Translations under genes and position numbers: made by a program | Notes under the pieces: model-generated | Seen by the model: only the letters and a program-made list of their open reading frames with translations | Database searches by the model: none | What the model was told of the DNA's origin: nothing | NCBI RefSeq assembly: GCF_014204865.1 | Contig: NZ_JACHMG010000001.1 | Span: forward strand, 3,994,501 to 4,058,500 | From: Amycolatopsis jiangsuensis | GTDB taxonomy: Bacteria > Actinomycetota > Actinomycetes > Mycobacteriales > Pseudonocardiaceae | DNA length: 64,000 nt | Direction of reading: 5' to 3' | In this document: piece after piece, positions 10,775 to 12,359 of the stretch | How the letters are laid out: every line of letters begins with the position of its first letter | Position numbering within the stretch: the first letter of the stretch is position 1

Positions 10775-10837
10775 CGTCCGCCTCCTGTCCGGGTGACACC
10801 TGACGAGCCAGGTGCGACACGCATTCGTGGTGAGGAG

Positions 10838-10918
10838 TACCCTCGACCATCGGTGTTCGTGGGTCAACACGACCCCCGTCACTCCGCACGCCGCGGCGTG
10901 CCCGATCGGAAGGAGGTG
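10838..10918 (+). promoter_or_regulatory. Putative promoter and structured 5' leader of corA
   Basis: TACCCT at 10838-10843 can serve as a -10 box. It is followed by two small hairpins, GGGTC-AACAC-GACCC at 10861-10875 and the perfect 16-bp palindrome GCACGCCGCGGCGTGC at 10886-10901. These come directly before a near-perfect anti-SD complement (GGAAGGAGGTGA, from 10908) that serves the leader ORF. The layout suggests post-transcriptional control; no known riboswitch class was recognised. Confidence 0.4.
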
Positions 10919-10929
10919 AGGAACCGACC

Positions 10930-11007
10930 ATGAGTAGTGGTGATAGTCCGCTCCCTAGTAGTCCCCGCGTTCCCGCCTCGCCGGCCGGCTCCTTCGGCAC
11001 CTGGTAG
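10930..11007 (+). CDS. Short leader ORF (25 residues) upstream of corA
   Basis: ATG at 10930 to TAG at 11005-11007, about 11 bases after a very strong ribosome site (AAGGAGGTGA). It encodes MSSGDSPLPSSPRVPASPAG followed by SFGTW. Five of 25 codons are AGT serine, which is hardly used in the surrounding high-GC genes, and six are proline (CCG, CCT, CCC). Such codon bias at the front suggests ribosome stalling rather than a functional product. It ends 91 bp before the corA ATG. Proline-rich leader peptides control the Mg2+ transporter MgtA in Salmonella; a similar role here is inference. Confidence 0.5.
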   Translation: MSSGDSPLPSSPRVPASPAGSFGTW

Positions 11008-11098
11008 GCGTTCCGGGAACAGCGGTGCTGCCGGACGGACACCGCGGTCCGCCTGGCCGTCGTCATTCGCGTTCCACGACGTCAGCCCAGGAGTAATC

Positions 11099-12187
11099 AT
11101 GCCTGCCATTCCCTCGCTCGGCGGCCTTCGCGGCCGCGGCGGCAACCGTGCCAAGGCCGCCCTCGGCCGGCCGATCCCGGTGCCGCTCTCGGCGTACGTC
11201 GTCGACTGCGCGGTGTACATCGAGGGCAAGCGGCTGCCCGGTCGCTGGACCCACGCCGAGGCGATCGCCGAGGTGCGCAAGCAGCACGCCGGGTTCGTCT
11301 GGATCGGGCTGCACGAGCCGGACTCCGAGCAGATCCAGGGCATCGCGGAGACGTTCGGGCTGCACGAGCTGGCGGTGGAGGACGCGCTGGAGGCGCACCA
11401 GCGGCCGAAGCTGGAGCGCTACGACGAGACGCTGTTCCTGGTGCTGAAGACCGTCCGCTACGTCGAGCACCAGTCGCCGACCACGGCCAACGAGATCGTG
11501 GAGACCGGGGAGCTGATGGTCTTCCTCGGCCGCGACTTCGTGATCACCGTCCGGCACGGCAACCACTCCGGTCTCGCCCGGCTGCGCCGCGATCTCGACG
11601 ACGACCCGGAGCGCCTCGACCTGGGCCCGGCCGCGGTCGTGCACGCGATCGCCGACCACGTGGTCGACCACTACCTGGAGGTCACCAGCCGGATCGAGGC
11701 GGACATCGACGAGATCGAGGCACAGGTGTTCGCGCCCCGCTCGTCGGTGAGCGCCGAGCAGATCTACCTGATGAAGCGGGAGGTGCTCGAGCTGCGGCGC
11801 GCGGTGATGCCGCTGGCCACCCCGGTCTCCCGGCTCGCCGAGGGCTACACGCGGCTGGTGCCGGACGAGGTCCGCTCGTACTTCCGCGACGTCGCCGACC
11901 ACCTGGCGACGGTGTCCGAGCGGGTGGCCGCGTTCGACGAACTGCTGAGCACCCTGGTCGATGCCACGGTCGCGAAGATCTCCCTGCAGCAGAACACCGA
12001 CATGCGCAAGATCACCGCCTGGGCGGCGATCATCACCGTGCCCACCATGATCGCGGGCATCTACGGCATGAACTTCGACTACATGCCCGAGCTGCACTGG
12101 CAGTTCGGCTATCCGATCGTGGTCACCGTGATCCTCGGGATCTGCCTGCTGCTGTACCGAATATTCCGGAAGAACGGCTGGTTGTAG
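11099..12187 (+). CDS. corA: CorA-family magnesium transport protein
   Basis: A 362-residue protein with the CorA signature YGMN at residues 322-325 between the last two membrane helices (AWAAIITVPTMIAGI and PIVVTVILGICLLLYRIF), a basic C-terminus, and a large cytoplasmic helical domain before them. The family forms pentameric channels for Mg2+ and sometimes Co2+ or Ni2+. ATG at 11099 follows CAGGAGT. Gene order around it (sugCBA-lpqY next door) matches Rv1239c. The structured leader with a small ORF upstream and a 38-residue membrane protein downstream are unusual additions. Confidence 0.92.
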   Translation: MPAIPSLGGLRGRGGNRAKAALGRPIPVPLSAYVVDCAVYIEGKRLPGRWTHAEAIAEVRKQHAGFVWIGLHEPDSEQIQGIAETFGLHELAVEDALEAHQRPKLERYDETLFLVLKTVRYVEHQSPTTANEIVETGELMVFLGRDFVITVRHGNHSGLARLRRDLDDDPERLDLGPAAVVHAIADHVVDHYLEVTSRIEADIDEIEAQVFAPRSSVSAEQIYLMKREVLELRRAVMPLATPVSRLAEGYTRLVPDEVRSYFRDVADHLATVSERVAAFDELLSTLVDATVAKISLQQNTDMRKITAWAAIITVPTMIAGIYGMNFDYMPELHWQFGYPIVVTVILGICLLLYRIFRKNGWL

Positions 12188-12242: not shown

Positions 12243-12359
12243 ATGTCTCGTTTCCTGACCAACCTCAAGTTCTGGGCGGTGACGCTCACCCTCGCCTGGA
12301 TCGTCGGCATCGTCGCCGTGATCGCGGCCAACCCCGGGTTCGCGCACGGCATGAACTGA
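12243..12359 (+). CDS. 38-residue membrane protein behind corA
   Basis: ATG at 12243 to TGA at 12357-12359, with AGGAG eight bases upstream. One hydrophobic helix (FWAVTLTLAWIVGIVAVIAA) is followed by NPGFAHGMN and stop. The last three residues are Gly-Met-Asn, the CorA pore signature, placed like the GMN after a CorA membrane helix. It starts 55 bp after corA on the same strand. It could be a small CorA-interacting subunit, or the tripeptide may be chance; no family is recognised. Confidence 0.6.
   Translation: MSRFLTNLKFWAVTLTLAWIVGIVAVIAANPGFAHGMN

Follow-up and report, generated by a model that had tools for sequence, protein, structure and literature searches.

Several leader open reading frames (ORFs) have been described in the vicinity of magnesium transporter genes, and are summarized here. 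In the case of mgtL, ribosomes leave at the EPDP motif at low Mg2+, with Rho termination thereby prevented and mgtA turned on (PMC11282234), and the prolines of MgtL are located at positions 3, 5, 7, and 9 (PMC6460261). The corA genes of Escherichia coli and Salmonella have a leader ORF of their own, corL (PMC11552253). In mycobacteria, an ORF termed uORF2 or Rv1805A, with homologues Rv1535A and Rv0115A, showed strong reporter expression and was assigned an unclear role; lacZ fusions and ribosome profiling were reported for its translation, and the family, which contains a conserved proline at position 7, was called specific for mycobacteria (PMC12810186). In the mycobacterial M-box leaders, Rho ends the transcripts and the M-box acts as a gate for ORF translation (PMC12810186).

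With respect to corA leaders in actinobacteria and leader peptides in Amycolatopsis, the open-licence matches listed contained nothing on the element described below. An initial annotation of this DNA had remarked that a translational sensor upstream of an actinobacterial corA would be new. That view is uncontradicted among the literature matches listed, but the mycobacterial relatives of the ORF are already in print (PMC12810186), and enterobacteria have a corA leader ORF, corL (PMC11552253).

The corA leader of Amycolatopsis jiangsuensis

The features read or predicted in the window, that is, the whole 64,000-nt stretch of DNA that was analysed, are collected in Table 1. The initial annotation had described two small hairpins, an almost perfect ribosome site, and a 25-codon ORF ending 91 nt upstream of corA. 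All are present in the letters: the first hairpin pairs GGGTC with GACCC, the 16-nt palindrome is perfect, the Shine-Dalgarno (SD) sequence is strong, and the ORF coordinates and the 91-nt spacing between its stop codon and the corA ATG are correct. Its remark on rare serine codons also holds, with AGT used for five of the seven serines of the ORF and for 26 of 823 (3.2%) in the long ORFs of the window (43 ORFs chosen by GC3 as the baseline), an excess with a binomial probability of 6e-7. Its six prolines, in contrast, were miscounted: the peptide contains five, the probability of five or more in 24 being 0.017. No M-box was found in this leader or this genome at the Rfam cut-off, and a match at E 6.9 in the leader search was rejected as chance.

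Table 1. Features of the corA leader and their positions in the window
Feature	Position	Strand	Remarks
Leader ORF MSSGDSPLPSSPRVPASPAGSFGTW	10930..11007	+	Codons 2-9, conserved core; 25 codons, stop TAG at 11005-11007
SD sequence of leader ORF, AAGGAGGTGA	10910..10919	+	Read in the letters; overlaps the invariant GGAGGTGAGG
Predicted -35 element GCGACA	10814..10819	+	18 nt 5' of the -10 element
Predicted -10 element TACCCT	10838..10843	+	Putative transcription start near 10849-10851
Small 5' stem around GTCAACA/GTCAACG	10861..10875	+	Region conserved; consensus pairing weak
Perfect 16-nt palindrome	10886..10901	+	Not conserved
P2 hairpin, 5' arm GCGTTCCC	10967..10974	+	Within codons 13-15 of the leader ORF
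P2 hairpin, 3' arm GGGAACAGCG	11015..11024	+	Shortly past the ORF stop; bulged A here, by eye
P3, possible second hairpin GCCGGACGGAC/GTCCGCCTGGC	11030..11057	+	By eye; without consensus-structure support
P4, possible short stem CGTCGT/ACGACG 5' of the corA SD sequence	11058..11081	+	Weak; slightly above shuffles
SD sequence of corA, AGGAG	11089..11093	+	Read in the letters and in leaders of the genus
corA, 362 aa	11099..12187	+	Sole PF01544 (CorA) match in this genome

The corA frame is open in the 5' direction through the leader-ORF region (10937-12187), as far as a GTG at 10937, so that automatic gene callers may set the corA start inside the leader. Directly 3' of corA, a 38-aa ORF (12243-12359) containing one hydrophobic stretch (MSRFLTNLKFWAVTLTLAWIVGIVAVIAANPGFAHGMN) possibly encodes a small membrane protein.

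Conservation within Amycolatopsis

The leader DNA was matched in 80 of 80 Amycolatopsis genomes (that of the window counted), and all 80 contain the leader ORF, with an ATG start in 76 and a GTG start in four, and with CorA encoded downstream on the same strand. In an alignment of 39 of the 60 distinct Amycolatopsis cores, GGAGGTGAGG (10912-10921) is invariant, as is GATAGTCCGCT save for one nearly invariant T. A -10 element reading TACCCT is located 73-146 nt (median, 84) upstream of the ORF start in 78 of the 80 leaders, and 71 of the 80 contain ACGACA or GCGACA as a -35 element 18 nt 5' of the -10 element. Both elements were predicted with a general promoter pattern, and the transcription start is likewise a predicted one. 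Since this predicted promoter upstream of the ORF is conserved, the corA leader should include the ORF. A weak second match to the leader DNA in the genome of the window (L081) was rejected as unrelated.

Among the elements that the initial annotation had singled out, the ORF, its SD sequence, and the proline and AGT codons are conserved in relatives, and the GTCAACG region of the small stem is kept in the alignment of 30 dereplicated Amycolatopsis leaders; the palindrome, however, is absent or altered in most of these 30, judged by eye in the alignment, and probably plays no part in the mechanism.

Conservation across the Pseudonocardiaceae

Counterparts of the leader ORF were found upstream of corA in 38 of the 46 genera of the family, with part of the assignment made by eye. 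A strict pattern, for which a 41-nt stretch is identical across genera, matched 63 of 390 family genomes in six of 46 genera, with no match to the reversed control pattern, and across the order, with a cut-off of E <= 0.01, a model built from Amycolatopsis only (R1) matched 69 of 397 genomes, representing 18 of 85 genera. A broader model (R2) was searched over 150 family genomes, where weak matches are partly chance and those with E up to 0.05 were excluded from the ORF counts; outside the order, most of the weak R2 matches look like chance and were rejected, with only L198 and L205 convincing.

CorA is encoded downstream on the same strand in all 32 of the non-Amycolatopsis family loci read from R1 matches and in 19 of 20 further family loci, the exception (L250) having an M-box leader and a family ORF without CorA in the stretch fetched. 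CorA was also surveyed in one genome from each of 19 genera, mostly those without a convincing ORF match. In 17 of these the best CorA shows 66-76% identity; an SD sequence and short ORF precede it in 16 of the 17, with L265 (genus g19) as the sole exception; in the other two, g18 has no CorA match and g14 a distant one only. At 13 additional CorA loci with less certain starts (L278-L290), most of them second or distant copies, no ORF was seen within 230 nt upstream.

The assembled set comprises 147 leaders from 38 genera, with counts on 147 left uncorrected for the identity of L149 and L259 (genome G227), which reduces the number of loci to 146. ORF starts were placed by eye in 35 leaders (L241-L249, L251-L264, and L266-L277). 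The genera outside the set are g3, g12, g14, g18, g19, g29, g44, and g45, among which g29 has a strict-pattern match. The start codon is ATG in 115 leaders, GTG in 29, and TTG in three, and the ORF length ranges from 19 to 43 residues. In g27 (L140-L143 and L146), the leader ORFs contain a variable number of SPLST- or SNPLST-like repeats, and no P2 arm was found there by pattern. In g41 (L144 and L145), the leader ORF extends into the start of corA and a good P2 was not seen; a ribosome translating either of these reading frames could directly prevent initiation on its partner.

Selection on the reading frame and the peptide

Codon use was compared in the 24 distinct cores among 95 leaders reading [MVL]S[STP][GS]DSPLP. 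Ser2 is encoded by AGT in 16 cores, AGC in five, TCC in two, and TCG in one; Leu8 by CTC or CTT; and residue 4 by GGC, GGT, or AGC, with D5 (GAT), S6 (AGT), and P7 (CCG) each encoded by a single codon in all 24. Beyond this DSPLP set, codons 5 and 6 vary as well (GAC in L080 and AGC in L147). Furthermore, twelve different distances separate the ORF start from the P2 arm; eight of them are 1 mod 3 and account for 121 of 126 leaders, with the 5' arm starting 37 nt past the ORF start in 87 of the 126. The synonymous exchanges, including those between AGY and TCN serine codons, together with the frame-keeping indels, thus demonstrate selection of the ORF as a coding sequence. On these comparative grounds the leader ORF is real and strongly conserved, and its translation in Amycolatopsis is inferred from the SD sequence, the frame, and the synonymous changes.

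Over the 38 genera, the core varies among GDSPLP, ADSALP, NDPHP, KDPHP, NEPHP, and DPAP. An acidic residue closely followed by proline ([DE]x0-3P within residues 2-11) was found in 138 of the 147 leaders. By genus, the fairer measure because 80 Amycolatopsis leaders dominate the other, it occurs in 31 of 38. Among the controls, the motif was present in 5 of 294 readings in other frames, in 271 (15%) of 1752 windows of ten residues, and at 12 of 59 long-ORF N-termini. It is absent in seven of the 38 genera. As the motif is missing there, and as four ORFs located behind M-boxes in families f31 and f32 lack the acidic residue, an acid-based sensor would not be universal. The C-terminal half of the ORF is variable in length and sequence, with RNA pairing mostly retained.

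The P2 hairpin

The hairpin P2 joins codons 13-15 of the ORF to a sequence a median of 14 nt past its stop codon, and in the window consists of 6 bp plus 3 bp across the bulged A. RNAalifold returned P2 as the sole consensus structure, both in 31 of the 41 candidate rows (the ten omitted from this first fold included several with a weak P2) and in all 41 family rows. In the 41 leaders, 96.8% of P2 cells are paired and 18 cells contain double changes, values each reached in 0 of 500 shuffles, as was the covariation score; slid controls gave 39-53% paired cells. Less telling were two further measures, the count of doubly changed pairs (31 of 500 shuffles) and that of pair types (184 of 500). When the downstream parts were exchanged among 47 leaders representing 35 genera, none of 2000 permutations reached the native value. 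In addition, 15 of 16 GCAT 5' arms face GGATG(C/T), compared with 0 of 120 GCGT arms, although these counts are of related sequences and not of independent events, with the A-U pair present in seven genera.

P2 is not uniform across the family. Its 5' arm was not found by pattern in g27 (five leaders), g13, one leader of g2, and two of Amycolatopsis, and P2 is weak or absent in g33, g38, g40, g30, and g41. Consensus folding of the family leaders gave no conserved pairing alternative to P2. The initial annotation had called the leader structured: its two hairpins can be read in the DNA, yet taken whole the leader folds no better than shuffled sequences (z = -1.04, with 30 of 200 shuffles equally good). 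This stability measure was set aside as too blunt, as were swap energies of the whole duplex (p 0.008), which are dominated by long GC-rich duplexes. P3 and P4, which look good by eye, were rejected as conserved hairpins, neither being a consensus structure and P4 being slightly above shuffles. For a P2-like helix at 52 mycobacterial loci, the mean longest run was 6.9 versus 6.1 in shuffles, a suggestive difference at most, and RNAalifold returned no structure for mycobacterial leaders.

M-box riboswitches and the link to Mg2+

Model R1 also matches in the Mycobacterium family, with relatives of the leader ORF in mycobacteria and Rhodococcus. No CorA was seen downstream in any of the 24 Mycobacterium-family loci read (L158-L181); the neighbours noted there by eye are genes for PPE proteins, for Nramp-type transporters, and for a TrkA-type protein, or a small ORF ahead of ileS. 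Eighteen of these 24 loci, from f4 and f8, were searched against Rfam, and an M-box precedes the ORF in 17 of the 18. Among solved structures, 7qia, an Mg2+-transporting Nramp relative, stands closest by sequence to the Nramp-type products of L163-like M-box loci, as judged from one protein (85 bits versus 31 for the next). These Nramp-type genes appear to be those described as manganese-type M-box genes in PMC12810186. At two mycobacterial loci (L176 and L310), the family ORF is located upstream of a TrkA-type gene, RCK-like by eye, with no M-box found. Recurrent ORFs of about 45-111 aa follow the leader ORF at M-box loci L159, L160, L162, L167, L169-L173, L175, L177, and L181, some with LWRxGVL near the end and others with a TPQERxNL..TPxAV pattern.

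The reverse search of 256 genomes of the class gave 28 M-boxes, located in 15 genomes, and an ORF of the family follows 23 of the 28, 19 assigned by rule and four by eye (L218, L219, L228 with a TTG start, and L235 with an ATT start), with L224-L227 and L230 uncounted. Of the 28 M-boxes, seven come from beyond the order; the ORF accompanies the four of f31 and f32, and the three of f34 have no clear one. The f31 ORFs begin MSSGGSP, MSSGSSP, and MSPGRSP and the f32 ORF MSPGHSP, all lacking an acidic residue; it may be conjectured that behind an M-box sensing by the ORF itself is unnecessary. At L198 (genome G723, f32, a family outside Mycobacteriales; about 1242-2787), an M-box, the ORF MSPGHSPRLSWAGSATPAA, and CorA (43% identity) are combined in one leader, possibly an intermediate between both arrangements.

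An exact-pattern search over GTDB yielded 105 stretches, 80 of which were examined, with M-boxes called by a profile built on the loci of the 28-M-box survey instead of Rfam. In the 26 Pseudonocardiaceae stretches among the 80, CorA follows in 25 (two by short matches), the remaining one reaching the end of its locus; none of the 26 showed an M-box, two having too little upstream DNA to tell. The other 54 include 50 with an M-box upstream, two truncated at the edge of the locus, and two, L304 and L310, without an M-box; CorA was seen in none of the 54, two of which have too little downstream DNA. Within the Pseudonocardiaceae sample, an M-box is present in five of 150 genomes, and in none of its seven Amycolatopsis genomes. 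Because ORFs of the same family are mostly located behind M-box Mg2+ riboswitches, the link of the leader to Mg2+ gains independent support. The interpretation given in the initial annotation is partly supported.

Proposed mechanism and alternatives

The comparative evidence is strong, and the mechanism is a well-motivated hypothesis. With a probability of roughly 0.6, the leader peptide and the P2 hairpin would act in cis to tune corA to Mg2+ in the manner of MgtL and CorL. As to the parts of this reading, the conservation described above indicates that the ORF is very probably translated and cis-regulatory, and Mg2+ is likely to be the signal; by analogy with MgtL, the acid-proline nascent chain may be the sensor, for which the odds seem a little short of even. 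Transcription would start near 10850, and a ribosome loaded on the strong SD sequence at 10910 would translate the short peptide, whose first nine residues may be hard to translate, with an early acidic residue, prolines, and rare AGT codons. Drop-off or a pause around codons 5-9, as opposed to a run to the stop codon at 11007, would then decide on P2 formation, and the state of P2 would set the amount of corA mRNA completed or translated, the presumed output step being either termination by Rho or accessibility of the corA start. With the usual ribosome footprint, the leading edge of a ribosome paused on codons 7-10 would be near nucleotides 35-41 of the ORF, P2 beginning at nucleotide 38, and a ribosome dropping off would leave P2 free to form. 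As a counterpoint, the two P2 arms would be almost unobstructed by a ribosome standing at the ORF stop. The parallel with enterobacterial mgtL suggests that low Mg2+ leads to more CorA here.

The ORF might instead couple translation or shield the transcript from Rho without any sensing of its own, with ribosomes blocking Rho, melting P2, and handing translation to corA. P2 is located where a passing ribosome would melt it, the leader ORF of g41 overlaps the corA start, and two mycobacterial studies report that ppe2 expression requires uORF translation (PMC11260477) and that M-box leaders are ended by Rho while the M-box gates the ORF (PMC12810186); such a device would nevertheless leave the fixed residues 2-9 and the single codons for D5, S6, and P7 in the 24 cores unexplained, and is considered rather unlikely. 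Action of the peptide in trans, as a small protein modulating Mg2+ transporters, was proposed for Rv1805A (PMC12810186), and would be in keeping with the conserved N-terminus and with the strong expression of the mycobacterial reporter constructs in that report. However, conservation is limited to about nine residues of ORFs of 19 to 43, the 3' half is kept mainly as an RNA arm, the downstream proteins are unrelated (CorA, Nramp-type, PPE, and TrkA-type, the last two named by eye), and the published test saw no effect on biofilm formation, all of which makes a trans role improbable.

The conserved stretch could also be mainly an RNA or DNA element, such as a protein or sRNA site or the mini-hairpin GAGU..GGC-GAUA-GUCC..GCUC, with the frame secondary. 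Such an element would account for the 41-nt identity across genera, for the appearance of the mini-hairpin in the consensus fold, and for the retention of TAGTCC after codon 5 in L198 and L205 where the codon 5 residue changes in f31 and f32. Against it are the synonymous swaps, the AGY/TCN exchanges among them, the frame-keeping indels, the start codon kept as ATG, GTG, or TTG in all 147 leaders, and the strong SD sequence, which render it very improbable.

Beyond the cis-acting reading for corA, a wider and still more tentative possibility is that of one actinomycete Mg2+ leader-peptide module (MSxGxSP plus hairpin), coupled to the M-box in mycobacteria, Nocardia, Rhodococcus, and some other families, and free of the M-box upstream of Pseudonocardiaceae corA, where the nascent acid-proline peptide itself would sense Mg2+. 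If so, peptide sensor and riboswitch would be interchangeable inputs to one output module, and this would possibly be a second case, far from enterobacteria, of Mg2+ sensing by the translating ribosome. A leader-peptide family reported as specific for mycobacteria extends to other actinomycetes and, with CorA, is linked to one more Mg2+ transporter in the absence of a riboswitch, and a cis-regulatory role becomes testable in Amycolatopsis.

Comparison with known systems

The M-box (RF00380) controls Mg2+ genes and precedes this ORF family in 23 of 28 actinomycete cases, whereas its aptamer is absent from the leader and the genome studied here. With Rv1805A, Rv1535A, and Rv0115A, as described in PMC12810186, the element shares a short leader ORF, a strong and conserved SD sequence, an N-terminus with Pro7, and adjoining Mg2+ genes, a comparison that runs via the mycobacterial M-box loci found here: MSSGDSP carries Pro7, and R1, made from Amycolatopsis alone, finds MSxGDSP ORFs behind mycobacterial M-boxes. 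The published homologue Rv0115A is likewise without an M-box (PMC12810186). Unlike the Rv1805A family as described there, the element is located upstream of corA, outside mycobacteria, without an M-box, and with a covarying hairpin across the stop codon.

The leader ORF of an Mg2+ transporter is common to MgtL, CorL, and the present locus. Of the two exclusive structures expected in the leader of an attenuator of this type, one covarying hairpin, P2, was found here, with no conserved alternative seen in the consensus folds. The enterobacterial leaders also belong to another phylum and differ in sequence and RNA structure, MgtL having an EPDP pair in place of the mostly single early acidic residue seen here; shared with MgtL, in which EPDP is accompanied by leader stem-loops set by translation, is the combination of an early acidic residue and proline.
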